Assembly: GCA_963969365.1 (NCBI GenBank)
Contig: OZ017760.1
Span: 2,356,001-2,420,000 of the forward strand
DNA from: Asterochloris sp. CNOR1
Taxonomy: Eukaryota; Chlorophyta; Trebouxiophyceae; Trebouxiales; Trebouxiaceae
Direction: 5' to 3'
Length of the DNA: 64,000 bases
Of this stretch, positions 1,587 through 64,000 are shown piece by piece. How positions within the stretch are numbered: position 1 is the first letter of the stretch; every line of letters starts with the position of its first letter. Under the pieces are notes generated by a model, which made no database searches, had not been told where the DNA came from, and saw nothing but the letters and a program-made list of their open reading frames with translations. A program made the position numbers and the translations under genes.

Positions 1587-4500
1587 ATGCAGGCCCCGCT
1601 GGACCCCCACAGCTTCATCACGCAGCGCCTGATAAACCCCTGTAGCGCCGAGGCGGCCAGCATGCGGCTCCGGCCACAGCTGCAGATGGCAGCCCAGTCC
1701 CTGCTAGCCATGCTCAGCAAGACAGCCACCACCCCTGGGGACAACAGCTCCACGCTTCTGATAGGGCAGAGGGGTGTGGGAAAGACGCTGGTGAGCCATG
1801 GTGTCTGCTGCTGTCTTGGGTCAGCAGTGGTCGAGCGTGACTGTCAGTCAACATATGGCAGAGAGCATGGCATTCTATGCGCCCCACACTGCATGAAACG
1901 CCATGCTGACCGCCAGCTCTTGCGGGGCACATGGCGTGGGCAGGACGCTGGTCAGCACTGCTCTTTCCTGCTGCCCTCTGAGACTTTTTGCTCACAGGCA
2001 CAGGCACACTGTGGCCTTGCGGGTATCTGAAGTGGGCAGGACGGTGGTGGGCACTTTCCTTGCCTGCATCTTCAGGGGCAAGTGCACACAGTTCCATTGC
2101 GTCTGCAGCCTGGCTGATCTGGGGACATGTGTAGTGGGAAAGCGAGACGGGTGGTACCCTGCCCCTGCCTGCTCCCCCTTGATCAGCTGCTCACAGGGAT
2201 GCCGCTTCCCAGCCTGCAGAAGGAAAGTGTTGGCGCCTGGCTTGTGGGCATGTGCAGTTTCGGGGGAGTACGGTGCCTGCCTTCTATTGCCGGGTAGGCT
2301 TGGCCGCCACCTGCTGCCAACTGCCTAGAGCCCCAATGCCAGAGTGATGGCAGGATATCAGGCCTTCCTGTGTCTCCATTCATGTGCATCACAAGTCCAG
2401 TCAGTACTTGGCACTGCTCTGCCCTGCACCTGCCGTTGCAACTCATGAAGGGCTTGCTGCAATGCCTGCAGGCGTCGCCAGGGCCCATCTCCTCGGATGC
2501 CATATTGTAACCAGATGACATGAATCAGACAGATCTGATTCTGCAGGTGATGGAGAGGGTGCTGAGCGACTTGCAGGCGCGGCACAACTCTGAACCCAGT
2601 GACCCCAAAGTGGGGGTGGTGCGCTTGACAGGGCTAGCCCACACGGAGGATGTAGCGGCCTTCAAACAGATTGCCCACCAGCTGTGTGGGTGCGTCGTGC
2701 CTTGAGCCAATGGGGTGCAGCCGCCCCTGATAGGACCAGCCCATATGGGATGTGGTGGCTGTCGTGGTCAGCTGTGCGGGTGGCTGGCATCTGGAGCCAT
2801 TTGTGTGTTCTGTAATGCTGGTGTGCCTGACAGGCCTGGCCTAGACACTGAGGACATGGCGCCCTCCAGAGGAACTAGAGCACCTGCTGGGGCTGAGTGC
2901 TCTTTCAGGCTGTCGACTTGCAGAGCCTGGTTGACTTGGGTGTACTGGGCTACATGTGGGTGCCATGCTTATGCGTCCTGCCACTGATTGGTGTTGCTTT
3001 GATGGGGGTCGCCATCAGCTGTGCTGGTACATGGTGGCGTGAGCCACTGGACGTTTGCTGAAGCTCTGGTGGGCTTGACAGGTCTAGAACCCACCAGCTG
3101 TGCGGGTAAGGGCAACTGCAAGCAGAGCCAGGCTGGAGATGAACATAGGGTTCCTGTGCCACGTGGGGTTCCCACAGCCAACATAATTGCCTGCAGGACG
3201 TTTGGGAGGGCCCGCTTTGCGCGCGGCGCTAGTCTGGAGGAGAACCTGGGGTTCCTGCGAGTCATGTTGGTGGATCTGGCGCGCGCAGGGAAGGTGGTGG
3301 TCTTCGTCCTGGACGAGTTCGATCTCTTTGGGCGCCGTGCCAAGCAGACCGCTCTGTACAACCTGCTGGACGCCATGCAGGCAGCTGACATGCAGGTGGA
3401 GGCAAAGTACTTTGTGTACATGTGGAGCCTGTGGAAGCTGCAAAGGGTCTGCATAGCTGACTCCAGATCTCTTTGCACAGCCTGGCGTAGGGCTTCAGTG
3501 CACAGAGCAGCGCTGTGTGGCTCTAGAGTCAGCTCAGCTTGTTAGACAAGGTTTTGGTGGTAGCTCGATGGGCAGCGGGTCAGGGAAGTCTGCTGCATGC
3601 TGAAAAATCCAGGCAGGCTGCCAGTATGCAGGTGGCAATCAGTTTAGTGACACCACAGATGAGGTGTTGAGGGTTTGGGAGCCACACAGGCTGTACTTGC
3701 GGGTCTAGGCTGCCTCAAACCCATTGTTGCTTTATCAAAGCTGCCCACTGATGTGCTAATTTGGCTTCTCCATGCACAGGCTGCAGTGGTGGGGCTGACC
3801 TGCCGCACAGACGCCATTGAGCTCCTGGAGAAACGGGTGCGCTCTCGCTTCTCGCACCGGCGGCAGCTCGTGCTGGAGCTCACTGCGGCAGAAGCCCAAG
3901 GTGTGCTGCAACTGCTAGTGTTGTTGCAAGCTGGGCAGAACTGTTCATTGCTGCTTTGCACAGACCTCGAAAGGGATGTGATGATTCAGGAAGGGGCAGT
4001 GAGGCAGCCTATCCAAAGCAGGGCTCATGGGGGTTGTTTAGCTCAGCACAGCACAGGCGAGGCCAAGGCAGGCAAGCTGGCCTGTGCTGGTTGCACATGC
4101 GACTGCAAACTGATGCTCTCAGGTGTGCCTCTGCTTTGGCGCCTCTGCTCTGGCCGGCACTGCACCCTAAACCCTGAATCCACCCACTGCTTCTGTGGTC
4201 ACATCAGTTCCTAAATGGGGTGCAGAGTCAGTGCAGCTTGTACCCGCATCACCAGCTGCACAGCCTGATTGGGATCAGATGAGGGGTGGTGCTGCATTGT
4301 GCAATATGACACAGAGCACGCTTCATGCATGGACATATTGTCATTGCAAAGCAGCACATCAACGGCTGCCAACCAGGCAAATGTATCACCTGGGACTTGC
4401 GCCTCCAGCATGTTCAGACCCAGCTGCACTTGCCTGGGTGCTCAGCAAAGCACGCCCATGCTCCAACTCATTGAAAGGGGCTCATTGAAAGCAATGCATT

Positions 4501-7500
4501 AAGGGCTGCCAGTTGCAGGCAGCGCCCATGCAGGCTGTGCTTAGACAGGCTGCCACGGGGCTTAGCAAGTGCACATGCATGCTGCAAGTGCAAGCACAGG
4601 TGTGGGGCACGCCAGTTCAAGCTGTGTCACAAGCAAGCCGCCTGCGCTATACAGCATTAGGTCTGACTGTTGCACAGGGTATGAATCGTCAACTGCTGAC
4701 TTCCACGAGCTCACAGTGGCGTGATGGTGAGCAGTTATCTTGCAGGAGTGCCAGCTTCAGGCAACGTCCCGGCTGTCAGCGCGCATACAGGCAGCGCAGG
4801 TGGGAGTGCGCAGGCGCAGGATGGGGGTAGCCCCTGGAACCTTTTGGCAGCCATGCTGACCCTGCCAGAATCGTACATCTCTGGTGGGTCTGAGGTGGCA
4901 TCACTCGCTGGCGCCTTCCTAAAGAGGCCAGTGAATGCTTCACTAAAGACATGACTTCAGCATGGCTAGATTAGAGGTCATAAACGTTGATTGGGGTTAA
5001 GCTGGGTCTTGGCACGTGTGGCTGCTGAGCTGTTGTGCCCTGCGACACTTCAGAAGCAGGACACAGGCGTTGAGCGGCATGCTGGTGTGCAGTGAGGGAT
5101 GCCCAGCCTGCAGTTGCTGGCCAGGCACCAGCAGACCCTGCTCCTGCGCTGCCACTGACGCCTCCCTTCAACCTGTGCCATGCCAGCTGGCCAGCACGGG
5201 GGCCACCACCTGCTTTCAGCAGATTGCGGTGCACATGACAGCTGCTTGCGGTCGGCAGAGCTGCAAGGCAAGCCTCCCATGCAGCAGGGCGTATATGCAT
5301 AGCTGCAGCACTGCACATGCACACCAAGTCCTTCTGCCGTTGTCCGCAACCAAGACAATGGCTTGTGCGTGGCAGGTCCTTCAGACATGGAACAGCAGAT
5401 GTGGTTTGCATCATGCAAGCCAGCACGGCATTGAGTGAAAAGCATTGTGTTCCATCCGCTGCAGATGGGCAGGACAGGAACGCCTGGAACTCTGCAGTGC
5501 AAGGGGCACTGGATCAGCCTGAGCTGCGGCGGCAGCTCACGCTGGCGCTCGATGCAGGTGTGCTGGCATGTACTGCGAAACGCTGGTGCTGATCAGTGGC
5601 TGTCAGAATGCTGCCTTCATGCTGACTTAGCCCTGCACTCATCTACCCATGTGCCTCACGTTGGCTGGCACTGTGCTGAGCAAGGGGCGCCTGAGCAGCT
5701 GCTCTATGCAGGTCTCCTGTTGCATCCAGCACGGTGCCGCTGGCCAAAACGCAATGCAGCCCTCAGGGTGGGGCTGACTTCAGCCTGTCTGATACATGGT
5801 GGTCTCCCTTATTGGGGCCAAGAGCCCTGACAGCCCTCTTGAACAGGTGCAAGCTGCAGTGGCCTCTCTGGGGTGCCCCTTCTTGCAGACGTCTGGTTCC
5901 CACCTCAGGCTATTGTGCTCACAGCAGCAGGCTCCATCACTCTTTGTCAGTGGCTACGGTAGCTCACAGAAGGTGCCAGTTGATCTGCAGAATCTGGCGC
6001 TTGATTCGGCATGGGTGAGCACTCCCTCCCATCTTAAGGACCTTTTCTTTCAATGACGGACAGGCCAAGTTTCCTGCAGGGTTTGACAGCCGCCAGGACC
6101 CCAACTCAGGGCACTTGTGTGTGTGCCCTGAAATGCTAGCTGGAGTTGCGCCTGCATTGGGTTGCTCTGGCACTTCATCTCTGACTTGCCACCGCAGCTG
6201 CAGGTGTCCTGTGCTTCAGCAACTGTCGCTCTGGGCTACAAGAGCAGCAGGATCTGGGGTCCGATTTGCGCTTTGGGGTATTCTGATTGCCTGGTCACCG
6301 TGGCTGCAGGGTTGAGTACTCTCGGGGACCCGGCCCATGGCCAGCAGGGCCGGCGTGAGTGTTGCTCACCTCTGGTGCTCAAAGACCAGCTTGCCGCTGT
6401 GGCTGCAGGAGTCGGCACCGCCAGAGCCCGCAGGTCATGGCGCCCAACATGCCCTCGCTGCCACCAGAGGCGTCGTGTTGCGCACCTCTGGCGCGTCATG
6501 ATCAGCATGCTGCCGTGGCTGCAGGGTTTGGCACCCCCAGGGACCTGGCCCACTGTGCTCTGCACGCCCTGAATGCTAGCAGGCAGCGGGGGTCCCTGCC
6601 GGCTGTCGGGGACCTGCTACATGGAGTGGCAACTGTAAGGGGCGTCGCCCTTCAGCAGGTGGGCACTCTGCAGACAGGGAGCTGCATCCCAGCTGTGGTC
6701 AGGTTATGCTTCCAATGTGGGCCGGTGCGGCCCACGCACTGCCCACCAACCAGCAGTGGTGGTGCAGGAGGGCTTTGAACCTGGCTTGAGGCAATTTGCC
6801 TGCCACTCCAGGGCTCCCCCTCTGCTGTCACGTGGGCCAGCAGAAGTTGTCATGTCATGCATGCATAGCAGCTGGCCAGGTGCTGTTCCTCGAAATGGCA
6901 ACATTCAAAGAACCCAGACACAGCCGCCAGGACTGAGTTATGCCTGACATGCTAAAGCTGGGCGGCCTGGTTGCTTGGGTAAGTCTTGCACATTGGCCAG
7001 CCTGCATTGTGCCCGCCCTTCTAATAGGCCCCTGGCGTAGGTTGCCAGCCCAGCAGCATGGGGCCCCCCAATTACATCTGGAGACTTCACCTGAACTAGG
7101 GTATCAGGAACTGCACGGCATGTTCATGTTGGCGAGCAGTGACTGGCGCCGCCAGTAGTCTGTGTGCAGGGTCTGGGGGAGTGAAGCCCTCTTCGGACTG
7201 TGCCCCGATGTTGTTGCAGATTCAGGTGCCCCGCTAGCTGTGCCAGATGACCCTCGTCTGGTGTGCCCCAACAGATGCTTGCTACTGACCTCCAGCAAGC
7301 CCTGTGCGTAAGGCACATGCGGCAGCTATGCGAAAATGCTGCTGCGGAGCTCAGCCTCCAGAAGCCGCTACTGCATGGACCCACCTGCTCTCTGCTGTTG
7401 CAGGTCAACATGATTGCCTCCCTGTCGGTTCTGGAGCTGTATGTCCTGGTGGCCCTCTTCCGCATCAAGCGCCAGGGGAAGGACAGCTGCACCTTTGAGA

Positions 7501-10002: not shown

Positions 10003-10038
<36 letters not shown>

Positions 10039-11445
10039 CTGCAAGGGGGAACTGGACTCCAGAACAAGCCGGAGGCGGCGGCTGACAGGCGTCTGCCCGT
10101 ACTGCGTGCATCACACCTGGTGAGATTCCCCCCTGCTGCCCCTGTGCAGAAGCTGTGCTGGCATCCTGCCCCCCCTGTGCAGGCGCCGCCTGGCTCTGGG
10201 ACTCCGCGGCCTCCAGCGCATCCAGCACGGACTCGCTCCCCCCACCCCGCCTGTTTGCGGCAGCCACGGCTGCGAACGCTCGCTCCTGGTCGCCCGGCGT
10301 CCCTGCCTGCGCGCTCAGGGGGTCTGCGCTGCATTGCAGTGCAGTGGCAGGCTGAGCAGGCATGCTACAGGAAGAGATGGAAAGAAGGGTGGGCGTAGCG
10401 CAGTGCAAATCCTGCTCGCAGAGAGGCTCTGGCTCAGGGTTTTGCATGCAGTGCAGTGGCAGGCTGAGCAGGCACGCTGCAGGAAAAGACGGAGAAAGGG
10501 TGGGCATAGCGCACTGCAAATTCTGCTCGCAGAGAGGCTCTGCGCGCTCAGGGGGTCTGCGCTGCATTGCAGTGCAGTGGCAGGCTGAGCAGGCACGCTA
10601 CAGGAAAAGATGGGAAAAGGGTGGGCATAGAACAGTGCAAATCCTGCTTGCAGAGAGGCTCTGCGGGCTCAGGGGGTCAACAGTGCATGCAGTGCAGTGG
10701 CAGGCTGTGCAGGTGTGCTACTGGTCACCTGGGAACCTGCCTATGTGCTCAGGAGGTCTGTGCTGCATGGCAGTGCAGTGGCGGGCTGCATGTGAACGCA
10801 AGAATGTTTTGTAACACGAAAGAAGCAAAGCACGGCAGCGCTGCACATGCACAGAGCCTGTGCACAGGCTGATTGCAGCCAGCCTCAACAGCAGCACAGG
10901 TGCCAAGCCAGGCACATCCGGCAGCCCAGGATCTGGATTGGAGATGACAGGTGCTCTAATAGCCTTGCTGACGGCTCACGGAGGCTGTTGAGCAGACCTC
11001 TATGCACCGGGTAAAGACCTGTCCAGGTCGCGCAGCAGGATATTGCAGCCCTGGGATTGGCATCTCAGACAGGCACAAGCAACCAGCTGTTGTTCCCTGT
11101 CAGGGAATTGGCAAGTGCCAGGGCTGCACCTTGAGGCACCACAATGCCTGCCCCGTCGCCTGGAGTCAGCTCATTTGTGACAGAAGGTACGGAACGCTCA
11201 TCCATTGGCTCAGGGACCGGCACTCCAGATGGGCCTTGCATGCTATGTCCTGAAGGTGCAAGCATGATGCGAATCTGAGCAGGCAAACTTCTTAGGGGCC
11301 TATACATGTGAGGAGGCTGATGCATGCATGCAAGACTGGGCTCACCAAAGTGTTGCAATGTGGCCTGCTGCTCACTGGGCAGGCCAAGCTCCCCAAGAGT
11401 ACCGTCAACAGGATCATCACGACGTGCACCTGACCCTCGCAGCAT
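8620..11445 (-). CDS. Unrecognised multi-exon gene, Ala/Pro/Gln-rich protein
   Basis: Several minus-strand segments have coding character and good splice signals. One near 11445-11345 starts MLRGSGARRDDPVDG and ends LQHFG before a GTGAGC donor. One near 11277-11100 contains GVPVPEPMDERSVPS and GAGIVVPQGAALALANSL. One near 10310-10150 contains GDQERAFAAVAAANRRGG and VLDALEAAESQSQAAPA. One near 9440-9360 contains ALVATGLRQEAQARLLQALE. One near 8990-8790 contains VRYHNLIVNASRLAAYETDI and ends NNLVG before GTGTGC. I cannot assign a family or prove these belong to a single protein, and the C-terminus was not found. The gene would converge on ORC4. Its low-complexity middle overlaps the poly-G tract (poly-Pro on this strand) and a minisatellite, so the exon limits there are doubtful. 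Confidence 0.35.
9741..10135 (+). repeat. Dispersed pair of ~60 bp direct repeats flanking the poly-G
   Basis: GCGGCGGCTGACAGGC occurs at 9741 and again at 10075, followed in both by CCCG-ACTGC-TGCAT and a CCTGGTG word, so about 60 bp are homologous at a spacing of 334 bp. The two copies bracket the 33-G tract. This is probably another duplicated junction block in the unassigned minus-strand gene. Confidence 0.55.
10006..10038 (+). repeat. 33-base uninterrupted poly-G tract
   Basis: The plus strand has 33 consecutive G residues, preceded by GGA and followed by CT. On the minus strand this is poly-C and would read as poly-proline in one frame. A homopolymer this long can form G-quadruplex structures and is prone to length change and sequencing error. 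Its exact length, and therefore the reading frame across it, should not be trusted. Confidence 0.95.
10319..10800 (+). repeat. ~120 bp minisatellite, about five units
   Basis: The core GTGCAGTGGCAGGCTG (last unit GTGCAGTGGCGGGCTG) occurs at 10339, 10451, 10572, 10692 and 10773, giving steps of 112, 121, 120 and 81 bp. The first four units also share CAGGAAAAGA-type and GGGTGGGC segments, GCAAATCCTGCTCGCAG and the AGAGGCTCTG word. It overlaps the unassigned minus-strand gene and probably lies in one of its introns. The final unit is shortened. Confidence 0.85.
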
Positions 11446-11898: not shown

Positions 11899-13483
11899 TC
11901 ATATGGCAGCAAAGTCCCGAACAGTTGTAGTACTGTCCATGATAGTGTCCTCTACTTTGTCCCACAAGGCTGAGGTGTTGTATATCAGACTGAAGATGGT
12001 GTGCTCCAGCTGAAACAGACCCATTGCATCAGAGTGCACAAAGAAGTCTGCCTCAGCAAGGCTGGGCAGACAGAGAGGCTGTTCTTCGCGGGGAGGCCAA
12101 GGTTGCAGCCAGAAGTCTGCCTCATAGTTCTCCAAGGTCAACTGGGTGAGTGCAGGCCAGTGACCAAGCCGGAATATAACACGCACAAGCCACGCAGCCA
12201 CCCCTGGTGTGCTTTTGCACAGGTGCACCAATTTACAAGATCAGTGCACACACCTGTATTGCAGTCAAGCCTGAGGCGCTGCAGGCTGGAGCAGCACTGC
12301 AAACAGGGCATTGCTGCCATGTCCAAACACCGGAGGTTTGCAGGCTTAAGGCTGTGACATGGGGTGGCAGCTGCTCCAATCCACTGCAGTCTCTCAGGTT
12401 GAGGCTCACGTCCTCAAGCTGCGTCAGCCTTGTGAGTGTGTCCCCAAACATCACAGGCTCAGGGGAGGCCCAACTCAGGTCCAGAGATCTCAATTGTGGC
12501 CAGTCCTGGAGCATCAACAAGGTGGAGTGAGGCACAGCCATCCGAGGACAGCAGAGGTCGAGAAGGAGCTCAAGCCTGGTCAGCCTGACCAGGCAGCTCA
12601 AGCTTGGGCAAATATCAACGCCATGAATGCACAAGACTTCCAGCATGGTCATTTGGGAAGTGGCAATATTGCGTGGGCTGCAATTGGCTCAAATGACATG
12701 GTCAGATGGGACAGTGAGGGCATGGGAGGTATGTCTGGGCACTGAGCGTCCCTATATCAAGGCACTGAATGTTCTGTAGCTGTGACGCTTGCATGACACA
12801 CAGATCCCAGGGCATTGCTGCTGTTGGGCAGACAGGATCATGATTCCCAAGCAGTAGCAGCCCCGAGATGCGGATGCCGTGAGGGACTGGCTGCAGAAGC
12901 CACTGTCTGGTGGGACTTAGGAGCCTGGGGAGATATCCAGAGCCCCGATGGCGTCCCCACCCCCCCACGTGTACTGGCACATGCAAAACCAGCTCCTGCG
13001 TCTAGTCCTTACAGACCTGAGCATGCGGTAGGAGTGAAGCAAGTCAGCATTAAAGTGGGAGAGATTCTTACTACCTCAGCAGGGTAATGTTTAGCTGTGC
13101 CAGTGCTGACAGCACAGGGGGCTTTCACTTTGTCATGCAGTAAATTAGAGGCTCCCAATGCAGGTACTCTGACTCACCATGGCAAGACCCAGCCAGTGCC
13201 GCAGCAATGCTTCAGAGTCTGGGAGACCAAGTACCAGGTGAAAGATGTGCACTTGCACTTCAGAGGGCAGGCCAGCAAGCAGCTCCCCCATGCTCATGTT
13301 CTGCTTGGCGACCTGCAAGATTGAGCAGGAGGTGCACTGGCCAGGAGGCAGCGAGCTTTCAGGTTCACATGGCATGTGCTTCCCACCTGGATTACTGGAC
13401 GATCTAGTGAGACCAACTAGAGCAGTGTTGCGTGTAACAAGGCTGTGCCAAGTTCGTTGGTGCTGAACAGGTCTGTGCAGCAA
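11899..13483 (-). CDS. F-box-like / leucine-rich-repeat protein, copy 1
   Basis: The N-terminal part, near 13300-13160, reads MSMGELLAGLPSEVQVHIF, resembling an F-box helix (LPxEVxxHIF), followed by ALLRHWLGLAMVSQ. Further exons toward 11900 encode leucine-rich repeats: LVRLTRLELLLDL, LPQLRSLDLSW-type text (here WPQLRSLDLSWASPEPV), LTQLEDVSLNLRDCSGLEQL and, in the last exon, LGHWPALTQLTLENYEADFW. Such proteins usually serve as substrate receptors of SCF ubiquitin ligases. The gene is a diverged paralogue of the copies at 16112-17816 and 22978-24471. Exon borders in the 12700-13000 segment are uncertain because the best frame changes there. It may use a start further upstream near 13483. Confidence 0.65.
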
Positions 13484-17816: not shown

Positions 17817-17823
17817 CGATGGT

Positions 17824-45237: not shown

Positions 45238-48200
45238 TCACCGCCGCGCACTGGGAGTGTTCTTCCAGATGAGCTGGCGCAAGGCCGTCTGTAACACTTT
45301 GTGCTCGTACACCTGCAGGCAGACACGAACACTGTCAAACAAGAGGTGCTCTGCGCTTATTGCCGCTATCAAGCAGCTTCAGCTTGTTCTTAGTGGAGCA
45401 GTGGCACAGGGAGCTGCTGCGCCAAGTACAGTCATGGCCTGTTGCAATATAGAGGGCAGTAGTACGCTGAAAACTGGTTCTTGCAGAGCAGTGCAAGTTA
45501 GAAGGCCAGCTGCAGTGCGCCACCACTCATGGCGTGCGCCCTCTCTGACCCAGCAGTCAGTAAGGCAAGGTTAGGCAGCACACCTGCAGGCGCTCTATAG
45601 CGGCAGCTGAGCCTGACAGTGATCTGACGTCTGACATCCGCACTCGCTGTACCTACAGCAGGTTGGGCAGTTCTGAGAGTTCCACTGTATATGCTTGCAG
45701 AACGTTCGTTGATACGTGACCCAACAGCACTTTGCTGCATAGCCAGCAGGCAGCCACAGCAGGACGCTACAGGGACAACTGTGGCCGATACTGTGTTACA
45801 AGACGGCCAAGCACTGCACCTGCGGCAGGCAGGCTAGGCTTTGGCAGGGACTGCTCAGGGAAGCTTACTGCAGCATCACAGTGGATGCCGTATTATGGCC
45901 AGCCCAAGAGCTCCACAGCAGCGCCAAAGGTAGAGCAGGCTTACCACAGCGCCATCTACAGCCTGGAAGGCAGCATGTATGCAGAAATGGCTCATCAAAA
46001 CATGTAAAGCCATGCACGTCAGGCCCACCAGGGCGCCCTCAACAAAGAATACGAAGGAGGGTACAATGGGCCCCTTCTTGCGGGGGTGGCGGTGGAAACG
46101 CGCCACATCTGTAAGCTCATCAAATTCGCCCCAGATGTCGTGCTTCAGGCAGCAGACACCTGCAGGGACAGGAGGCAGGTTGCTCACAGCTACCCTTGAG
46201 CAGCGGCACTGGCCAAGACCGTGTGGCAGCCATGTCCAGGCATCTGCTTACATTAGCACTTCCCTGCAGGCACAACAGGCAGGTTGACATGATAGCTTGC
46301 AAAAACATGGCTTCACCACCCCAGACATCCTCCCAGTGTTGGCCAGATGTGACCCCGTTGCCAGCACACTCCTGCAGCTGCAGCAGGCAGTTTGCCTGAG
46401 CCTGACTTGCATTCGGGCCCCAGGTGTGGTAGCGACATCTTGCAAGACAAGCCCAGGATTGGCTTCCAGGCGGCTCCCAGCTGAACCAGAATGTCTCAGC
46501 TGTCTTTGTTGTCTAAGAGCAGTAGTGACCAGACTGAAACATGCCTGGTTACCCCAGACGCCATGCTTCAGGCAAGAGGCCCCTGCGTGGACTGTGAGGA
46601 GGGCAGTTCAAGTGATGCAGTGTGCAGTGGCACCCACCTTGCACATGCCTGACATGGTCACCCTGACATTGCACTTCAGACACGTGTGGAAACGGAGGCG
46701 ATTGCACCTCTCATGCCTGGCCACACAAAGACAGCAGAGATGGCAGACTTCGAGGTGTTGCAAAGTAATTGCATCTGCAAGATTGCAAGGGGAACATTGT
46801 GTGCTTCACAACTTACAGTTGGCACTAGTTGTGCACCCTGCATGGCTAAGGAGGTGCCCTAAAGCGTGCAAACTGGGTCTGAAAGCCCTGTGCAGACCCC
46901 TGGCTCAGCAAAAAGCAGGTGCGCAACAAGCTGTCTTCCACAAGATTGAACGTCACGCAGCGTGGCAATGCAGACCCTTGCTGCCTGTCTAAGGCAGCAT
47001 TGCGAAGTACACTGCTCCCCATGCAAGCCACCTGCTGCCCTCACCTGCCCTTTGCCTAGCATAGTCCCGAGAGAGGTCCGCATAGCTACGCAGCACTGCC
47101 TTGCATCCTCCACAGGACTGCAGGCAAAGGAAGGCAGGTTGTCAGCATGGCCTGTCTGCCGCAGCTGAAAAGGGCCTGGTGTAAGTGTTGCTGCAGCACT
47201 GGCACAGACAAGCAGGGCGGCTGAGTAGTGCCACAGGGTATTTCAGAAGACTGCTTACACATAGTGCGCACAAAAGTGACATGCATTATATGGCTGTAAG
47301 GATCCAGTCACGCGTACCAGGTGCTTGCCTAGTCATCAACAACCATGCGCTCTTGCCCAGCAGATTGGATGCAGTCTGACTATCTGGTGCAGTCTCACCT
47401 TGCTGTAGAGAAACAGAATCACGACTGCGCTGCCTGCCATGTCCACCAGTGAGTCCAGGTGTGTCAAATTCAGGACTTCAACCACCTGCAGGCACGCAGC
47501 TTGCAGACGAAGGGGTGGGCACTCTGCCGAGCTCATGGGCTGTGTCAAGGCGTGAAAGCCGTGAGCTCAACTTGCATGGACGAGCACAACAGCCAGCTGA
47601 ATGTGCAGGACTGGCAGAAGGCTCTAAAGCCAGAGAGTGGCTGCAGCTGTGCACAGCCAAATGCCTGCCTGCTGACACTCTAGGCAGCCAGCTGGACGCA
47701 GCTGTGCATGTCTGACAGGTAGCGCTGGCGGAGAGAGAGGGGTTGCAGCTGGTGCTTGCGTGCACCCGGCGACAGGCTGCCACCAGGGCTGCCTTGATGA
47801 GCATCTCACGGTGAGTGACTCGTTGAGCTGAGTGCAGCCCTCTGCCACATTGCTTGCCATGATGTTGCAGATGCAAAGATGCATTGCTGCCTTTGCTGTC
47901 AACAGTGAAAGTTGCCACCACATAGCAGCTGGCTAGAATGCATGCACTGTCCACACAATGACCAACATGGCTGGCGCGCACACAGCGCGTCATGCTGAGG
48001 TGATGCTGAGAAGCTTGCCTGGCCAGGTGCATGGCTCTGCTGAACAAGCGTGAGGTCCCTCTGGACCTGACGCTGCAGCTGCAGCTCCAGATGGCGACGT
48101 CTGTCGATTTGCAGTGCCCTTGTGACCACCAGGCCCCTGTCTCTACCCACCATACATTGCTTTGTCAAAGTGCAGCACCCCTGCAGGAGTCATTCTCCTT

Positions 48201-48388: not shown

Positions 48389-51300
48389 ATGCGCCGCAGA
48401 TGCCTGTCTCTGGCCCTGGAGCAGTTGCATGGCCTCCTTAATGGCTGCCAGGCTGAGAGCCAATCTGCACTGGCTTGTTTGCGGACATTCAGCTCCTTGA
48501 CAGATCCTGTGTCGGAAGTCAAGTTGCTACCCTCCAGACAGTGGGCCTTGAACTCAGATCACAAGGCAAAATGTGCATGTTACAGCACCAATCGTGGTCT
48601 GAGCGGTGGTGCCTGGAGACAGCAGGGATGGAGCGGCCTGCAGCCAGGTTTCCTGCTGCAACAGGCATCGCCTATGGTCAGGGGCTTATCCACATCTCAC
48701 AGTGGGGAGGAAGACCCAGAAGGGCAGGCTGCCCTGGAGCGGCAGAGGGTTCGGGAAGCAATCGGGGTGCTGCAGGTAATCATGCCAGCAGCAACAGTGC
48801 CAGAGAGATGCTGCACTCAGGCTTCTGCAGCTGGGTGCGTGATCCCTGGCCCAGCAGAGGATCCAGCTGGACATCTGGGAAGTAGCAGAGCATGCCCTGC
48901 AGCTGCCAGGCAGGACTGGCTGCTGAGGCAACCCAGCATTTGAAGGGACATGGCCTGCCAGGATGACATGGCCAAGCAGCTTGGTCAGGCAAACATTTGC
49001 AGATTTGCCGTCAGCTTGCCAAGTGCCATAATGTCCGCGGCCCAGCAGCCCATGTAGATTTGGTCACAGCTTGGCCAGTCATGCTGGCATGTCTCTAATT
49101 GAGCTGGTGTAGCTGACAGCATGGTGGCCTGCACTGAGGCACCGCTGCCCTGCAGCATGAGTAAGTTGCAATGCACAACCATATCTGGGGTAGAGTCTTG
49201 GCGCCCCCTTGCTGCCCCTGCGGCCCATGTGCAGACAGAGGCAGCCTCTGTGATACAGGCTTTTCAGCATGCTGCTGTGCTGAGAGAGTGCTGAAGCCTT
49301 GCTGCAGCTGCAGCGTGTGCTCTGGTGATACAGCGCCTCTAGGCCACCCAGCCAATATACCTTGTTGCTGCCCCTGCAGCACGTGCACATGGTGCAGCTG
49401 CGGGAGAGGCTAGCGACGCTCAGCGACACCCGCTTGCACATCAGTCACTCGGAGCTCCTGCAGCACATTGTGGACAGGTGAGCCAGGGGCGTCAGGAATG
49501 GACTGAACACAACACTGCAAGGTTGTCTGCCAGGCATTGATACCTGCAGCACCTCAGATTGTGGCTGGAGGATCTGCTGCCTAGTGGCACACCAGCAGTG
49601 CTGGCAGTGCCAGTGTCTGCTTGAAGTTTGGATGCTTTGACCAGCTCCCTTAGCACCCTGAGAAACGGTGAGATTGTGCTGTGAGGAGCTGTCTGCCAAC
49701 AAAATTGCAACGCCTCCTGGTTGGCTTTGCTGCCCTCAGCACTCTGTATAGTGGGCATGGGAGCAGCGACCTGCCGGTGGTGCACTATCTTGCTGGCACC
49801 ACTGCCTGCATGTATGATCAACTCTGCATGCAAGGGCTCCTGCAGCACAGCATTGACAGGTGAGCAGGGCCAGACCACCTTTGTAAGGCAGCACATCAAT
49901 CCTGCTAACACTCCCCTGGGCGCATCAGCTTGTCCTGCAAACAACTAGATGAGTAGGCCTCACTCTTTTTGCATCTGTACCCCTGGGCGCTGGCGAGGCC
50001 CTTTGCAACCCTGCACAACACTGCCGGCAGCGTGTCCGTCATCAGTCATGTCATATCCTTGCTGGATGCAGTTTTGTAGCTTCTGCCTGGCAGGCCCTGC
50101 TCTGAAGCTGCCAACAACCCCCTGCAAGTCCCTGCTGCTGCTTCATGATGAGCGCCTGCAGATGTCCTGTCGTGCTGCTGCACTCCATGCTGCTCCTCCG
50201 TCGATGTCTGCACAGCTGAGGTCAGGCTGTGAGGCCACTGGCAGCTCTGACTCGCAAGCTGTATCTTTGACCTGCAGCTCTGCAGTGAGACGAATTTGAC
50301 AGCAGAGCGTGCTGTTGAGGTGCTTCAGTCTGAGGCCCAGCACTGTCGCCTGGCTTGTGGCTCAGCTAGGCACTTGGCAGGGCACTCCACTAAAGCAATG
50401 GACACTGGTGCTGGCTCCACTATCTTACTTTGTCTTTTCTATTCTGCAGCTCTGCAGCGCAGACGCGGGCTGAGGCGGAGCACATTGCTGAGGCGCTGGA
50501 CACTGCCGGCTTCGTGATGCGCTTCCGGGACAAGGTCTACCTGAGGCCAGCTGAGATTGCTGGCATGGTCCTGCAGGTAAGTCCTCTGTGAAGGCAACAC
50601 CTGGTGCCAGCAAGCTTCTCAGGGCTTTCTCTATGAAGCAATGCGTGCTGACCAGTCTGATGTAGGCTGGACGATTGCTAGGTAGTGCTGCTATCAAAGA
50701 GTTGGCTAAAGCTCGCCCAGGACATACACTGGCAGTATATTTGCAGTGCCTGTGCAAATAACGAGGCAGCCCCAGACAAGACGTCCTCCGGAGACAATTT
50801 GCACTACACGCTAGTGTTTTGCACAGCCCTTCTCACTGGTGTGCCCTCATGGGGATGCTGCTGTGCTAGTCAATTCGGGCATGAGCATCCAGCCTGCCAC
50901 CACTAGGCAGCCTACAGTCAGCCTGTGCTTTTGACCACTGCCTGGCACTTTGATTTGCCTGTGCCTGCAGTCCGTCGCTGGAAAGATGTCACAGAGCTGC
51001 AGTTGCGGTTTTTTCTTTTTTCAGATACAGGCATCCCATGATTTGTGTGTGCTTCTGTTGCATGCAGCCTTGCGACTACTCATTGCTTCTTGCCTGCAGT
51101 CTGTCCCAGACACACGCCACGAGATTGCCATGGAGCTGCAGAAGCTGAAGGCGCAGCTGGAGCCGCTGATTGCCCAGAAACAGGAGGTGGACAAGAACGC
51201 CCACAGGTGGGGCTGCAGCTGGTACATCCTTCTGCCCTTGGACCAGCTGTTGCCAGCAAAGCTGTCTGTAGCTCTCATGCTATCAGGTTGTGCCATCAGA

Positions 51301-52700: not shown

Positions 52701-55700
52701 ATGAATGGCTACAGCAGAGATGAAGACGAAGTTCAGGTACAGTGAGCTGCGCATCTCATGCTGCGTTTGCTGCCTGCAAACATGCATCTCATGTGCCACG
52801 ATCACAAGGTGCAATAACAGACAGCTTGTCATACACAATCGCAGGCAGTGGCGGGATCAGGCAGTGCACAACCTTACCTGCAAAGTGCATCCAAGACTTC
52901 TCCATGTGCCCCTGCCTGCAGGCTGAAAATAGTGGCCGGAATGCCCGAGGCCCCAGCCAGCGCAATGCCTTTGCTGACCGCACGAACTTGGGGCCAGACG
53001 CTGGAGCCTCGCGCCTGCTGTTCAGCAGCCTCAAGGGGGAGACTCATACACACAAGACAGGGTTCAAGCAGCTATTCAGGCGGCTGCGGACGCTGTACCG
53101 GCCTGACAGCTTGGACAGCCGGGACCAGTTCACGCTGAAGGGCCTGTCGGAGGCAGATGTGGTGGTCTTTGGCTGCCCAAAGCAGAAGTTTACCAATTCA
53201 GGTGCGCTGTGTGCGGCCACACAAGGTGCACCCCTACATCGGAACAGGGCGAGCACAAAGGAGCAGCATCAGCAGCAGGGACCATGATGCGCTGGAGCGC
53301 CCTCAGTACATTTGGTCTAAGGGACCTTGTGAGGCCTCTACTGTGGCCTTTGGGTGCCCTCGGCAACAGTCTGACACAGGCCGAGCTTCACAATGCCCAG
53401 AAGCCTCCAGCAAGAAGCAGGGGGAGACTTCATCTGTGCAAAATCCAAAGCACACACTCTAAGAGTGCATGTGACCCCTGCTGCGCTGTCCCTCCTGTCC
53501 TCCCACCACAAGAAAGCAGGGAGGCACAGCTGTTTAAGGGAGGGTGTGGCCCCTGCTGCAGAGTTTAGCCTGCTCAAGCAGTACATCATGGAGGGTGGCG
53601 CAGTGCTGGTCCTTCTGGCCGAGGGCGGGGAGGCGCGGACAGGCACCAACATCAACTTCCTGCTGGAGGAGTTTGGGATGATGGTCGACTCCAACTGCGT
53701 CATCGCGTGAGCGATGTGTTGCCTGTGGTGCAGCTTGCTGCCTGAGACCGTGTGTTGTACCTTAAGTGCTGGATCATGTCAGGTACTCAGGGACAGCAGC
53801 TCGCAAGACGCCGTCTTCAAAGCCAACACGCTGTCTGGCATCGTGCGGTGTACCATGGGGTGCTGGGTCGTACCAACTCCAATGTGTGATCAGGTACACA
53901 CTGGCAGACACTATGTCGAAGGTGTAGGCTGTGCCCAGCAAAAGGAGACTGGGGGGTGCTTCACTACAGGCAACGTCCTGGCCTGTTCACTGCGCGCTTG
54001 ACTGCAGCCACAGATGCTTATTATGTACAGAGCCTTGCCTGAGCTAGCAAGCTACCTGACTGTGCCCCTCGTTCTGCTGCACAGGCCCACATCCTGTAAG
54101 CTCTACCTTTCTTGCTGCAGGGCTTCACACCACAAGTACATGCACCCAAAGGAGGTTCTGGTCACCGATGGGCTGCTGAACAGGGAGATGGCTGCATCCC
54201 TGGCCAGCCAGAAAGAAAGCCAGCAGGAGGACCTGACTGTGCCACAGCAGCTGCAGCCACAGGGCAGGCAGCGCAGGTGAGGTATTGCTGCGTTTGTTGC
54301 CACTCTGGTCCTCTGGCGCTGCTTCTGTCACTAATGACTTTGCACAGCTAGTCTGTGTACATGCAAAGGTCAAGTTGCGCCGCAGAATGAGGTTGTGCTT
54401 GTTGCCAACTCCTGTCATACGCTCAGATGCTATCAGCAATGCAGATTATGGCAGAAGCACAGGGCACGCAGCGCAGATAAGGGTGGCCCATGGGTAGCCT
54501 TGATGGCTTGTTGCTATGCAGGCCTGCACTGTACTTTGCAAAACTGTTATGATCAGCATTGCGAAGGTCATGCAAGGCCACAGCTCAGGCTGGGAACCAA
54601 CAACATTATACATTCGACAAACACAGTCAGAAATGACGCCGGCTGCACCACCTGGCTCCCTGCGGGGCGTGCAGCCCTCTCTAAGGTGCCTGCAGCACAG
54701 CTGATCCTGCACCATCTCCCTCGATATGTCTTTGGTCCTCTCAGGCAGAGGCCATCTTGCTAAGCCCTGTCCAAAGCACGCCTCTGTGCTGGCCTTGCTC
54801 CGAACACAGAACTGTTCTACAGGCAGGAGGCCTTCGACGGAACAGGCGCCGCCTTTGTGTACCCTCGCGGCGCCACGCTGACAGTGCAGAGGCCGGCTAT
54901 TGCCATCCTGGGCAGCGGCAAGGTGGCCTTCCCCATGCACAAGGCACTGGGTGAGCAGGCATGTCCTGCCTCCAAGCGCCTGCTGATATCAAGAGTGGCA
55001 ATGCTTCCCTGGTGGCATGGCCAGCATGGCCAACTGCCTGTGTGAGGCAGCCCTCACCTCACACAGGGTGCTGATCTAGAGGTTTTATTGCTTTGAAAGG
55101 GGGTTGCAGACACAGCCAGGGGCAGGCAAGCTTGCCATTGTGGGCAGCGACACTGCAACAGCAATCTCTTTGAACAAACAGCAAAAATGTCCCCTGTGAA
55201 TGTAGTCAAGGGCAGGTTAATGGCCTCGGTGGGCTGGCACCCAGCTTGGCTTAGGGGCAAGTGCATGCAATACATCCTGCAGGAGCCCTTTGGACGCAGC
55301 CAGGGGCGGGCAAGCTGGCGGTGCTGGGCAGTGCGGAGATGTTTGACGATGCGTGGCTAGACCGTGAGGACAATGCGCGGGTCATGGACTGGGTCTTTCG
55401 CTGGCTGCGCAGAGTGCGTACAACTTGTCTCTGTAGCAGAGCATAACCTTTGCCAAGGAGAAAGGGCATCTGCTGTGCTTGCTGTATGTGAGATTGTGCC
55501 ATCAGGAACAACACGCTTCTGCCTTGTATTGCCTACGCGGCTTGGGGACTTTGTGCACTGCATTGCACCGCTGACATCGCTGCTTGCAGTTGCTGCACCC
55601 GCGCTTGCTCTGCGTGGGAGTGCGCAATTGCCATCACGCTTGTTGACAACCCCTGTAGCTGTAGCGCTTTACTGTGGTGCTTGAGCACCTTGTGCTTGGC

Positions 55701-58700
55701 AGCAGCCTGTCACGTCTTGGGCTCTCACGAAGTGCCTTGTGTATCTGCAGGGTCGCTGTGTCTCCATGCAGGTGCGCGGCGCATCTCTGTAAAACGACAG
55801 CCACTCCTGTTGTTCACTGGCCCATGTACACTGAGATGTTGTCTTCCCCATTGTTTGCAGTGCGGCAGCCTGGCCCTGGACACACACAATGCTGAGGAGC
55901 CACCTATGACACAGTATCAGCATTCTTCATCTGCACCCTTCCCAATCATATGCTGTGACCCGTAACACGGCTCCTGCAGGGCAGCAGGCTTTGCCTGGCC
56001 CTGGGTAGCTGTGGCATGCATCGTCTCCCTTGGGCAGGTCTGCAGCCCTGCTCCTGTTTCACTTACGTCCTGTACTTCATCAGAAATGCACTGTATGCAG
56101 GGCAGCAACCTGCCTCTGGACCTGTACGACGCTGAGGAGCCAGCCATCACTGAGCACCAGCATCTTCCGGACACTGAGGCGCTGGCAGAGGACTTTAAGG
56201 CCTGCCTGCAGGTTAGAGGCTGCCACCCTTCCGGCACACATACCGATTTTTGCATACACTCAAGGTCTGCCTGCAGGTTGCTTTCATCGCCCTTCTGCCT
56301 CATGCACCGTCACAGGCATGTGACACACCCAGACTGGACAGGCAGCGCTGCCCAAATACCCAGCAGGGACTGGCATCTTCCTGAGGGAAATGCAAAGGGC
56401 ATCGCTGCCTGCATTTCTGCACATCCCTGCTGGCAACGTGCACGCTGGTCTCAAAGCCTCCTGAGGGGAGTGCAACGCTGCCTGCTGCGCTTGTGCGCAT
56501 CCCTGCTGGCAGTATGACTTGACGGCAACGAGCTCCCCCGAGCTGAGTGTAACGCTGCGTGCTGCACTTTGTGTGCATCCCTGCTGACAACATGCGAGAT
56601 GGCGTTCAGGCTTCCTGAGGGGAGTGCAACGCTGCCTGCTGCACTTCTGCGCATCCTTGCTGGCAGGTTGACCTGACAGCAGCCAGCTAACCCTAAGGGA
56701 TTGCCGAACTGTCTCGTGTTTGCAGCCAGCATGGGTTCAAATGCATTGATTAATGTGCCGCCCTAATAGGCTGGGAGTCAGGGTGTCGGCTCCTGCGCGA
56801 CTATATTTGCCTGGACTGACAGCAGCGTTCCCCTTGGAGGGACTGAGTTGCCGTTGCAAGAGGGAGGCAACGGCTTGTAGCATTGCCGGCTGCGTTTGGC
56901 TTCTACTCTGCTGTATTGTGCTGGAGGTTGTGTAAATCTGCATGTTGTTCGTGCAGAAGAGAGGTCCAGACACCGTCTTTGACTGCGTCAGATCTGTGCT
57001 GCGCTGATTGTTTGGGACTCAGGGGGAGGCACCCTCCAGGAGGAGGTCCAAGCGCCCTGACATCAGCAATCCACACAGACCAAATGATTTGCTTACAGAA
57101 AGGGGGCAGACCTGATCTTGGGACCCTTCTGGCTGCATCCAGCTGATGGGTGCGCTCCGCAGAGATTTGCGCCAAACATTGTGGTGTCTCTGCAGGAGGG
57201 GGATGAGATGCCGCAGGACTGGAGGAGCCTCTTTGATACCAGCCTATACAGTATGGACACACGATTGGTGCCACAGGTGAGCAAGGATGCAGCTGAAGGT
57301 GGTGAGCAGAAAGGGCTGCACATCGTCACCTGCATAGCAAGGCCATGCACTGCCAGGCCAAGCTATGCAGTAGGGCCGCAATCGGTCCCACAGGTGTGCA
57401 CTGAATGTGATCGTATGCAGAACATGAACACAGTAGAAGAGAAAGCTGCGCCCCCATCTCGTAAATTAACAGCTCTCTGCGCTTGAGATGAAGGCAGTGG
57501 ATTTGCATACTGGAACTGTGCAGAAGCTGGTCTTCGCTTGCAGAGGCCTGCACTCGCACAAAGCTGCAGCGTGATGCTCACCCATACTGTGTTGCTGTTT
57601 CCAGCTGATTGCAGGTGCTGGACCTCTTGCAGCAAACTGGCTGAGAGAAATCCCATGATGTCATGCAGGAACCTGCCCAACAAACTGCAGACATGAAAGG
57701 TCCGCCCTAGAGCAGGCAGACGAGAAGCGTTCAGCGTGCAGATATGAAAGCTGAGCCAAAGCCCACTAAGCTCTGTGTGGGTGCTCACTGCAGGCAGTTG
57801 ACCTGTATGGCAAGCTGGGTGTGAAGAAACAGCCGTTGACCCTGATCCAGCCAGAATTTGAAGTGCCGCTACCCCCGCTGGAGCCGGCTGTGTTCCCTCC
57901 AGCACTGGTGGAGCTGCCGGTGCCGGCACTGGAACTTTTTGACCTGGAGGACCACTTTGCCTCAGACCATGTGAGTGATCTTCAGTTTTGCACCAGCTGG
58001 AAGATGCCGCAATGGTTATCCGCCGGAGGGGTGAGGTGCTGAGAAGGGGCGGAAATGGTGCACATGTGACATGGTGCAAAGCTGTCGCACCCTCCAGGCG
58101 GAGCTGAGATGGCGCCACCGTTTGCAGTGGCGAAGGGACCTGACTTGGAAAGAAAAGCATGTGCTCTGACATAGGCCTGCCCAAAATATGACAACGACCC
58201 GTAAAGGCTGAAGCTGAGTCTGATCGAGAGGGCCACTCCACCTCAGACCATGCATGCGCTTTCAGACAAGTCAGTTGTGTGGGAGCTGACAATCTGCAAT
58301 TGGATCAAGGCCACCACCAAGATCGTGTGCCAGGGCTGTACACACTTTGCCTGACAGGCAGCTCAGCCCGTGACTGGCACATGTCAGTGTATGCATCTCG
58401 GCTACCACTCAATTGCACTGATACTGACTGTGTGGCTTGCAGGCGCGCTTAGGCCACCTGACCAACAAGTGCATAGACGGCGGGGAGGGGGACCTTGAGT
58501 TCTTTGTGCAGGAGGCTTCCCACATTCTGGGGCTGGCAGCCCCAGGGCAGGACCCTCGCAGTGCCAAGGTCAGTTCTCACAACATAGTGTGCTCCTCATG
58601 GCAGCCTTTCAGGTAGCAATCGGCATGTGGCCTTGTTGACGGTGCTGAAGGCAAGCAGAAAGTGAGTGCCGGGCCGGGGGTTGCTGTTGGGGTGAAGAAA

Positions 58701-59719: not shown

Positions 59720-62700
59720 TTATCCAGTCCACCTCATGACCAACAGGGCATTCAGAGCACCAGCTTCAGAAAGCGTCTGCTCCTTATTTCTGAGGGGTTC
59801 AGAGACTGCAGCACACACATGCATAGTTGTTCAGCTGAACACCATCTATGACATTGCACATGACAAGTCTCAGGATGTACTGACCCCAGGCTTGCTTCTT
59901 GAGAGATGCTTGTTGAGAGGTGCTCAACTCACCTGGAGGGCCATGCTGCAAAGTGAAGGGCTTGCCAGCTGCAGCCTCCTCCACCTGAAGGCAAGCATGC
60001 AGCATAGCTAACTTCTCTGACGCCCTATCCGACCACTCAGGCATACGCAGACTGCATGCTCTTGTCTTTCAAACTATCCTGAACCCAACAGACAGGCTGA
60101 CACTTGCTGCAGTGCAGCATGCAGCGCAGGCCATGAGCAATCTCAGTTGCTGCAGACACCACCCTCACTGGAGCAACCTGCCTGTTCAAATGTCTGCACA
60201 CCGTTTGACCATTGAAAAGTGAGCTGCACCTGCAGGCCCTGCTCTCTGTGCTGCTCTCTTGAAAAGCAATTGCACCCTGCAGGCCCCTGCTCTCACCGTG
60301 GCAATGCACAGGTCGTACAGCCTGGCCACTGCAGCGTCCTTCGGGAAGCGCCTGTTGAGCCTCTCGCCCGATGGCATACGGATGGCTGCAGGCAAAGTGA
60401 GCAGGGGTCAGCCTGTGGCCCAAAATGAGTTCATGCCCTTGACCATAGCTGCTTGCGTCCTCTGGAGCCGCACTTGAGGCCAGCAGGAGGGGCAAAGCTG
60501 TGCTGACTGCAGAGTGGTGCATCCTCCTTGGACGTTCTGACTGAAGATGCAGCTGCCTGCCATGACACCCCTTACATTGTTAGCAAAACACGGCTCACCT
60601 ATGCCACTGCCCCCATCTGCTGGCTCTGGTGGCAGCCTGGCCTCTGCTGCTGCCTTGGCTGCCTCTGCCTTGTCTGCAGCTGCATCCTGCACATAGCAAG
60701 TGGCGATGTTGAGGGATAACGCCAGAAAGCTCTGGCCACAGCTCCTCTGCTCCAGAGTGCACGCCAGCCACCCTACCACACCGTATTCCCCTCAAAACTA
60801 TGATGGTCACCTGTTGCCACAATGCTCCTGTGCTGGAGATTGAATACTTGCTGTGTGGCTTGCAGACTGTCATGCTGGGCCCGCCGTAGGGTATACAGCA
60901 AAGACAGCAGAGCAGACGACACTGATATATGCTCCAGTCTGCCCACAGGGAGGCCAAAGCACCCCGCCCAAACATGCCGCTGTACTTTTGAAGCTTTCAA
61001 GACAGCTTTCCTGTGCTGTCAGCTGAATGCAGCGGCAGCCGCAGCGTGCTCGGCACTCTGCTATGCTGCAGACCCCGTTGGGGTGCACTGTCAGCCGTCC
61101 CATGAGAGAATGCAGCAACACAATCCGAGCTTCCCTCTGTCCCGCTGGCTTTGGCCTGCTTGTCACACAGCATGCTCACCACTCCAGCAGAACCAATCTT
61201 TATGTCCCAAACTGCCAATCAGGGCTTGAGCATGCAGCAGCATGACAAAAAGCGCCCTCTGCCCTTGTACATTGTGCCTGACAACTGACTCCCCAGGCTC
61301 ACGAATAACACATAGCACGCGCCCCAGCCCACCTGGGTCCGAGCCGGGTATCTGCTCCGAGTGGTCTGAGATGACTCCCCCGCAACCTTTGTCGGGGCTG
61401 CCACTGACTTTGCCTCCACCGAGTTGGCTGCTCCAGACGTCCCTGCCAACGATGCTGATGCAGCAGCTGCAGCCCCGTTGGGGCCTGCCTGCCGCAGGGG
61501 GGAGGTTGCCGGCTGTGAGGGAAGCTGGCTGGTGGGTGGCAGCTGCTGGCCACCCTCTACCGACATTGCCAGCGCCATTGCCAGCTCCTCGTCTTCTGTC
61601 TGCACCATTAGGGCCGTGCAGAATGTGAATCACATACAGTTTCTCTGCCCTCTTCCACTACTTCTGCACCCCACAACCAGTGTGCCCTCTTCCATACAAT
61701 GCTATGCAGGCAGCCATTGCGTTGGGGGAGATAAGTACAGGCATTGGCAAGCCTCATTGCCGTGCTGCAGCAGCAGCCCATGTTAGGGCATCAACAAGAT
61801 TGCAAGGGTTCTGCTGGCTCCCCTCCTCTGCCCTGACAGCACAATGCATGTTGCCCCTGGGGCCCCTGGGAGCTCCCTTGGCGGCTGTGTGTCCGCTGGC
61901 TGTAAGCGCAAACTCCAACTCGTGCAGGGCCCAACTAAGGACAAGCACACATGATGACAGAATTTAAATAGACTGCTGCCCTGCCATGTCCTGACGCAGC
62001 CTGAATGCAGCTCACCTGTGGCAAGGGTGCCGGGGGCCTTGAAAAGCTTCCCTGCCGGCTTCGCGCCCGCTTGGCTGCATGCACGGCGGCTGCGGGGTCA
62101 TTGATGCCATGGTCCAAGAAGGGCACCAGCTCCTCCATCAGCCTGCAGTGTGTATGTGGTCAGTGCCAGCCTATGGATGATATTTGGGCCACCCAGTTCC
62201 CTCCTCCAGTGGACAACAGCGTCGACTGGCTTGACTTTAGGCGCAGCTATGTTGAGCTGGAGAGATGTAAAGCATTGCAGAGCGGTGCCAACCCTTCTCC
62301 ATGCACCCAGAGAGAGGGCGTGTAAGCGCTGAGCACAGTGGCAGAGACTTGGAGAGCTGCAGCCCGGGTTGTGGCTCAGGAGAAATATGCTGCGCCTGCA
62401 GACTTCAGCAGGAAGAGGCCTGGGGAAGATCAACACCCATGAATGGCTTCTTGAAGTACGCGTTGACTTGATCATGGCCATGGACCACTTTGGGCATCAG
62501 CTCAGCCAGCAGCCTGCAGCCAATCAACCTGTGAACATTGTCTCAAACTGAAGCACAGACAGTGCCTGCTTCTGTGCAGATGAGGCACACGCTGAGATGC
62601 GTACAGGTTGTGCAGTAGCCTAGTTGCTGCAGGTTTACACTAAGCTCTCCCCAAGCAGCATGGCAGGCCACTTTGAAATGGTGCTGGCAGCTGGGAGGTC

Positions 62701-63297: not shown

Positions 63298-64000
63298 GCA
63301 GACAAGCCCAGCTGGGGTGATTACAGTTTTGCTGTGGTTTTTGCTGCCCATATATTATCACACCCAAGCAGCAGCAGGGCATGAGCAGGAATGTGCTGCT
63401 GCACAGCAAGATAAGGTAGCGTGAGCACTGAGACTGGACATCAGGCCTGTGGCGGGCTGGGCACAGAGCTATCGGCGAGTCTGGTGGGCTGGGTGTGTTG
63501 GTTGCCCTCACATTTTATACTCTGCCGGGCTACCCAGGGTGTATGCTACAGAGCCCCGATGACCTTTTGTCTACCTGCCCATGTTCAAGAGAAGTACTGT
63601 TGCGCTGAGATTTAAACGGGCCTCTGCAGTGCTAGAGCATGCAGCAAGCTCATATGACAGCTGCCCTCCTGAACGCTTGCCGCTAAATGCCACCTTCAGC
63701 GACTGGATCCTTGCCTGACGTGCAGTCATGCGGCATGCAGTGACACATTCGACTGCACGTGCACAGACCTGTCCTTTACTGCCGCATCCATGGCCTGCAG
63801 GCATGTCACAAAAGCCAAAAGGCCCCTCACAGCCAGCGCCCCTCACAAGCGCAGATGGCACTGCTGCCCGCAGATGGTGCTGTATGCTCGGCGCAGCAAT
63901 GAGGTCGAAGCACACAGACTTTGGCTGTGTATGCCAGCAAATGCCAAGAGCTTGACCAAAAAAAGGTCCTCACAGCAGATAGCCCACGACGAGCGCAGGC
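63298..64000. other. Right-edge stretch without a confident exon
   Basis: I expected the first half of the UAS domain and a UBA domain of the minus-strand UBX gene here but found no matching peptide. One minus-strand open stretch (63915-63571, containing LSYELAACSSTAEARLNLSA and ending before a GTAGAC donor) could be an exon, with no family support. Most of this segment is probably intron. Confidence 0.35.

Follow-up and report, generated by a model that had tools for sequence, protein, structure and literature searches.

Intron length is usually ascribed to transposons and small indels. The 64-kb stretch of Asterochloris sp. CNOR1 DNA analysed here, called the window in the following, belongs to contig 15 in a genome of 21 contigs and 56.4 Mb and raises the question why so many introns contain degraded copies of the exon ends that adjoin them, and what these copies have done to the introns. 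A first-pass annotation of the window had listed such copies in eight genes and had proposed that the introns lengthen or shift by serial tandem duplication across exon–intron junctions. The sample was extended by twenty 10-kb stretches, which come from 17 other contigs and were placed around chaperonin genes in 11 cases and arbitrarily in nine; together with the window the sampled DNA amounts to 264 kb or about 0.5 % of the genome. The GC content of the window is 53–59 %. The genome of Asterochloris glomerata has been described as comprising 56 Mb, with nine introns per gene and a plastid genome of 217.5 kb (PMC6652019).

Genes were predicted ab initio with a self-trained HMM, which converged on the donor CAG/GTGAG and the acceptor CTGCAG/G (the slash marks the junction). 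The acceptor motif is unusually rigid: at the three positions before the AG, T, G and C occur in 96, 94 and 97 % of 409 predicted introns, respectively, a rigidity that may have been sharpened by the self-training. Because the first model places false exons of 3 bp inside copies, the analysis was restricted to introns that are identical in a second, stricter model. This robust set contains 292 common introns, 263 with both flanks of at least 30 nt and 221 with a length of at least 150 bp. The chaperonin predictions, taken from a later model and judged by eye, are near full length, with some false short exons and three mergers into neighbouring genes. Within the window Pfam matches were obtained for ORC4 (ORC4_C), DHHC, VASt, IFT52 and UBX; the MCU match lies under the Pfam cut-off (22.6 vs 30.8 bits), and the names LEA-like and Trx-like were assigned by eye.

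The copies found gene by gene are compiled in Table 1. Six of the eight genes named in the first-pass annotation (ORC4, DHHC, LEA-like, VASt, IFT52 and UBX) carry them at introns of the robust set. The small repeat-protein gene and the MCU-like stretch, which complete the list of eight, also contain the repeats, but at junctions outside that set. A Trx-like gene that was absent from the earlier list also has copies at a robust intron. At the predicted ORC4 acceptor 6409 the active site is uncertain, since one copy of the tandem pair sits in a predicted exon.

Table 1 Copies of exon edges and related repeats in the window and in three of the additional stretches (d, distance between edge and copy in bp; positions refer to the window unless a stretch is named)
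Feature	Position	Strand	Details
ORC4 exon end and predicted active donor, source of copies	1764..1813	+	junction 1790/1791; gene models; ORC4_C Pfam
ORC4 donor-edge copy 1	1925..1973	+	intron 1791-2546; d=160, score 44; 27 nt exon and 23 nt intron; decoy GT kept
ORC4 donor-edge copy 2, weaker	2032..2052	+	96 bp beyond copy 1; score 26
Full tandem pair at predicted ORC4 acceptor 6409	6352..6582	+	unit 117 bp
Small repeat-protein gene, tandem array in and adjoining predicted exon	10307..10724	-	period ~121 bp, ~90 % identity
DHHC donor-edge copy	19791..19817	-	intron 19246-19901; edge 19909-19934, d=117, score 34; DHHC Pfam
LEA-like acceptor-edge copy in intron	30300..30368	+	edge 30388-30452, acceptor 30426
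VASt exon-end copy, stops short of junction	42555..42593	+	intron 42514-43017; source 42457-42495, d=98; VASt Pfam
Trx-like acceptor-side copy 1	46263..46286	-	intron 46160-47044; score 36; 23 nt of intron side and one exon base
Trx-like acceptor-edge copy 2	46343..46395	-	intron 46160-47044; d=212, score 42
Trx-like acceptor-edge copy 3	46552..46610	-	intron 46160-47044; d=423, score 50
Donor-edge copy, junction outside robust set	49643..49812	+	unit 190 bp; source 49453-49623; homology over 25 nt of exon and 146 nt of intron, score 62
IFT52 donor-edge copy, decoy GT now AT	54458..54583	+	intron 54277-54822; d=200; IFT52 Pfam
Acceptor-edge copy at predicted acceptor 56101, junction outside robust set	55849..55928	+	edge 56089-56167, d=240, score 72
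IFT52 donor-edge copy, decoy GT kept	57358..57400	+	intron 57277-57793; d=117, score 42
UBX exon-edge copy, stops short of junction	61859..61907	-	intron 61600-62015; source 62032-62082, d ~175; UBX Pfam
Array of four acceptor copies	stretch L027, intron 3359-3934		at 98, 199, 309 and 435 bp; exon part of each copy 17-20 nt
Array, clear serial copies	stretch L026, 6534-7178		
Chaperonin intron, both edges copied	stretch L012, 3850-4716		PF00118 matches on both flanks

For a systematic survey each edge was represented by a probe of 60 nt of exon and 30 nt of intron, which was compared with its own intron at a score of at least 32 in the 221 introns of at least 150 bp. A donor-edge copy was found in 32 of these introns and an acceptor-edge copy in 38. 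Probes swapped in from other genes gave 0.9 and 1.0, reverse-complemented probes 1 and 2, and reversed probes 0 in either case. Outside the window the corresponding counts are 23 (donor) and 33 (acceptor) of 176 introns. The splice motifs are strong here, as shown by the acceptor CTGCAG/G, and matches by chance, by composition in common or by motif similarity might be expected from them; yet the swapped edges carry the same motifs and match about once, against 32 and 38 for the own edges. Chance is thus ruled out by the three controls and its probability is practically nil. Probes of 60 nt of exon only still found copies for 17 of 216 donor and 19 of 218 acceptor edges (swapped 0.3 and 0.4). 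Edge-near intron pieces recurred in the rest of the intron in 14 (donor) and 5 (acceptor) of 221 cases (swapped 1.2 and 1.3). A longer exon probe lists copies in 76 of the 221 introns, i.e. about a third, at 81 of the 442 edges (swapped control: 4.8 edges, 4.7 introns), and 52 of the 81 cross the junction. In chaperonin genes, where both flanks have PF00118 support, a copy is present in 14 of 31 introns and at 15 of 62 edges. Exon-edge copies inside introns are real and extend beyond the window. The comparison of own with other exon edges, which the first-pass annotation had itself proposed as a check, agrees with its claim, as does the occurrence of copies on the donor and the acceptor side and occasionally, as in the chaperonin intron of Table 1, on both sides of one intron.

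Some green algae are known to harbour introners, and the repeated units could have been supplied by such a family or by another mobile element. However, neither of the two stretches searched, from ORC4 and L027, has a match elsewhere in the 56 Mb genome (the search skips very common words). Furthermore, a comparison of different loci, each against the next, yielded only 10 pairs with a score of at least 40 over 200 kb outside the window and 1000 offsets. Dispersed elements were rejected on the single-locus result for the two stretches, and an origin of this kind is hardly credible.

The geometry of the repeats is that of tandem duplication at short range. Repeat pairs were collected by a banded gapped self-comparison at offsets of 25–1025 with a score of at least 40; the control consisted of four bands of the same width at distant offsets. 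Within about 1 kb the window holds 57 direct-repeat pairs, compared with 3, 2, 1 and 0 in the distant bands, and at offsets of 1030–3030 bp the number is nearly down to the level of these bands. In chunks of 1500 bp, 234 direct pairs compare with 115 inverted ones, the inverted ones being counted twice. Once low complexity is filtered out, 207 direct pairs are left in the 264 kb. Their distances concentrate at 80–140 bp, and 36 of the 207 are near-full tandem units with a repeat length of 0.75–1.3 of the offset; decay could, as a conjecture short of proof, account for the remaining pairs. The distances of the edge copies have quartiles of 108–181 bp on the donor and 95–202 bp on the acceptor side, with 36 of 81 at 80–140 bp, in accordance with the steps of typically 65–380 bp, often 96–121 bp, noted at first pass. 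Divided by three, the distances of the 52 spanning copies leave remainders of 0, 1 and 2 in 20, 14 and 18 cases, i.e. with no clear frame bias.

A junction-spanning copy goes along with greater intron length, the median being 508 bp (n = 51) vs 317 bp in the other introns (n = 170; P = 5.5e-9). Longer introns also give more room for matches, but chance contributes few of them. A tandem genomic duplication of an exonic AGGT is a route of intron gain with good support in other systems (PMC3443670), a case in potato RdRp being one example (PMC4974935). According to this Rogers-type model each event would have created an intron with a copy of exon sequence on either side. Here, however, its in-register signature at intron length is absent: at a score of at least 32 the upstream exon end matches the intron end in 0 of 262 introns, and the intron start matches the downstream exon start in 0 of 262. 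A comparison of whole junctions gave a small excess (4 of 239 vs 0.8), as did that of upstream with downstream exons (2 of 262 vs 0.2). Classic intron birth by AGGT duplication was rejected on the in-register result and is very unlikely to explain the copies; for the same reason they are assigned to intron lengthening and not to intron gain. Of the first-pass proposal, lengthening by tandem duplication across junctions is thus retained on the evidence of the length difference and the near-full units, and the suggested tie to intron gain is given up; none of the observations requires that junctions shift.

Our preferred reading, to which we assign a probability of roughly 0.78, is that introns of this alga were lengthened by tandem duplications of about 100 bp which spanned a splice junction, some of which grew into arrays. 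A tandem unit, mostly with a distance of 80–140 bp, would be duplicated across the junction, and such an event would be tolerated because the unit brings its own splice site. The outermost copy would stay in use and the exon would remain unchanged, while the additional exon edge, the decoy splice site and the piece of intron would turn into intron DNA, so that the intron would gain one unit. Some units would expand to arrays of two to four copies, the inner ones of which would decay. Such a geometry would be expected if staggered breaks or paired nicks were filled in and slippage came next, which is put forward as a possible molecular cause. The earlier claim that one junction is kept active and the rest decay is supported as far as the decayed copies are concerned, and the gene models, from which the active junction was read, point to the outer one.

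The state of the decoys bears on this reading. On the donor side GT is kept in 14 of 25 spanning copies, with 3 more unresolved (14 of 22 resolved), on the acceptor side AG is kept in 22 of 27. Donor retention is close to the expectation from 77 % identity per base, whereas AG exceeds the expected value of about 60 %; this surplus may result from aligning across the motif, or else from selection. Near-neutral decay may accordingly be assumed more safely for donors than for acceptors. The many retained GT and AG would also suit a role of the copies as alternative or mutually exclusive exon parts under selection. However, of 47 decoys 39 would, if used, shift the frame or run into a stop and 8 would keep it open (5 copies in genes cut by the locus end were set aside), and spanning copies have a median of only 28.5 nt of exon, compared with 134.5 nt for the median internal exon. 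Selectively kept alternative exons were rejected, as most decoys cause frameshifts or stops, and only a small chance is left to them.

Serial copies, likewise reported at first pass, are well borne out. With the threshold lowered to a score of at least 26, a copy is present at 129 of 442 edges (swapped 42 of 441) and two or more at 30 of 442, as against 1 of 441 swapped edges. Among these 30, the nearest copy scores above the farthest in 17 and below it in 8. Two or more junction-spanning copies occur at 16 edges, and of the 41 steps between them 20 measure 80–112 bp and 6 measure 189–212 bp. The exon breaks of copies of the same edge lie closer together than permuted ones (mean difference 12.2 vs 17.2 nt, P = 0.008); on the same data the rank correlation is not significant (0.11, P = 0.51). 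On this mixed evidence a common exon break points to one founding duplication followed by growth of the array.

Most of the repeats are old: 150 of the 207 pairs are 20–40 % diverged and 17 are below 10 %. Because a steady process should not leave fewer young copies than old ones, we infer that the duplications resemble a past wave more than a steady process, an argument weakened by the possibility that old arrays are split and young ones merged in the count. In stretch L021 (6184–6995) a tandem duplication of 404 bp with a score of 500, not among the pairs with less than 12 % divergence, includes a whole predicted exon and intron.

Where the duplications fall was compared with random placement. 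In all 264 kb, pairs between intron and junction number 61, compared with 43.7 by random shifts (stricter model 59 vs 35.2), and the excess stems from outside the window (46 vs 31.2; stricter 48 vs 25.9). In the window alone there is none (15 vs 12.8; stricter 11 vs 9.8), and the earlier statement that introns across it are 'built from' edge copies is overstated, even though the copies exist. Pairs within introns fall below random placement (61 vs 76.5; stricter 55 vs 77.6) and those between exons above it (17 vs 8.8; stricter 18 vs 9.7). Pairs touching intergenic DNA number 3 vs 15.7 expected in one model and 23 vs 32.5 in the other; since this avoidance depends on the gene model, no claim is made from it.

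Simulations were run with junction-blind duplication, steady or past-wave timing and real exons of at least 150 nt, all rates being assumed. Under either timing the exon part of the copy distance was 0.44–0.48 and exceeded one half in 40–53 % of copies. In the spanning copies observed it averages 0.27, and 5 of 52 lie above one half. Exon sequence 60–120 nt from the junction was copied at 0 of 138 donor and 1 of 136 acceptor edges, i.e. at 1 of 274 edges compared with 2–5 % in the simulations. The short exon part speaks against the preferred reading as it stands and implies that the junction is favoured in one of two ways, by where the breaks fall or by selection. A more specific view is that duplication was directed to splice junctions as hot spots, for example by nicks linked to transcription or splicing or by R-loops, and that the units were laid around the junction. 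It draws on the exon parts of 0.27 (donor) and 0.26 (acceptor; P = 1.7e-6 and 1.5e-4 against a uniform distribution), on the scarcity of copies from deeper exon and on the excess of intron–junction pairs in both gene models. On the other hand, better survival of copies whose exon source is conserved matches or exceeds, in simulation, the excess of edges over intron-interior repeats, selection against exon-rich decoys would shorten the exon part likewise, and 61 of the 207 pairs lie wholly within introns. Direction to the junction is therefore possible but rather unlikely. The wider view that the splice junctions of this algal lineage were hit by a junction-centred wave of duplication, with growth coupled to splicing or transcription in quanta of about 100 bp and distinct from intron gain, is doubtful.

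Paralogous genes give some indication of timing. An LRR/F-box-like family, named by eye, occurs in the window (11950–13320, 15640–17650, 22980–23100) and has paralogs on contigs 4, 5, 10 and 15, which show 67–81 % identity to window 12000–13330 over the matched pieces. Members differ in local duplications: a tandem unit of 75 bp is found on contig 10, perhaps as a coding repeat, the member at window 15.7–16.4 kb shows offsets of 516 and 550 bp, and the query stretch 12000–13330 has no local duplication. These duplications were consequently gained or lost since the divergence of the paralogs. Repeats of other kinds were also noticed. Telomere-type seven-base repeats stand at the start of contig 14 (CCCTAAA, L011:1–200) and, as a 7-bp period, at the start of contig 5 (L036), and a chaperonin gene lies less than 10 kb from the contig 14 end that bears CCCTAAA. 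Contig 21, which carries rbcL, has a long array of 11-bp repeats directly downstream of this gene (L041:2530–2715).

Short tandem duplications arising from staggered breaks or paired nicks are a known product of break repair in plants. They resemble the copies described here in unit size, which ranges from tens to hundreds of bp, and in the lack of mobile elements, but are not known to be tied to splice junctions. In intron gain by AGGT duplication a short tandem duplication with splice signals likewise puts exon sequence inside an intron (PMC3443670; PMC4974935); there the new intron arises between two exon copies, whereas here the intron existed before, the unit lies across one junction and the signature of birth is missing. 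Internal tandem repeats at human exon–intron boundaries (De Grassi and Ciccarelli 2009, PMC2812944) are also tandem units, some of them at the boundaries, that change gene structure and lengthen introns. However, they are described as having an average unit of 30 bp, as recent and as belonging to genes in primate segmental duplications, while the copies in Asterochloris have units of commonly about 100 bp, are mostly old and occur in unrelated genes. Direct repeats around splice sites are also the subject of Rogers and Bendich (2025, PMC11782384), whose repeats of 4–30 bp near intron borders were interpreted as footprints of insertion; they compare the two borders of an intron, whereas here longer copies of one border lie within it. 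Novel intron positions in Drosophila, attributed to sliding or tandem duplication (PMC2891723), are alike in that duplication near introns alters gene structure, but concern new positions and not lengthening. Among the literature matches listed, whose coverage leaves out most subscription journals, there is no earlier description of the edge-copy pattern, and the word 'tandem' is absent from the main text of the A. glomerata genome paper (PMC6652019).

Taken as a whole, the interpretation given at first pass is partly supported. What the finding means for the alga is that 70 of the 442 exon edges tested, about a sixth, keep a readable record of a junction-spanning duplication. Such a record would make the growth of introns datable copy by copy, and it opens the question how the spliceosome chooses among duplicated and initially identical splice sites.
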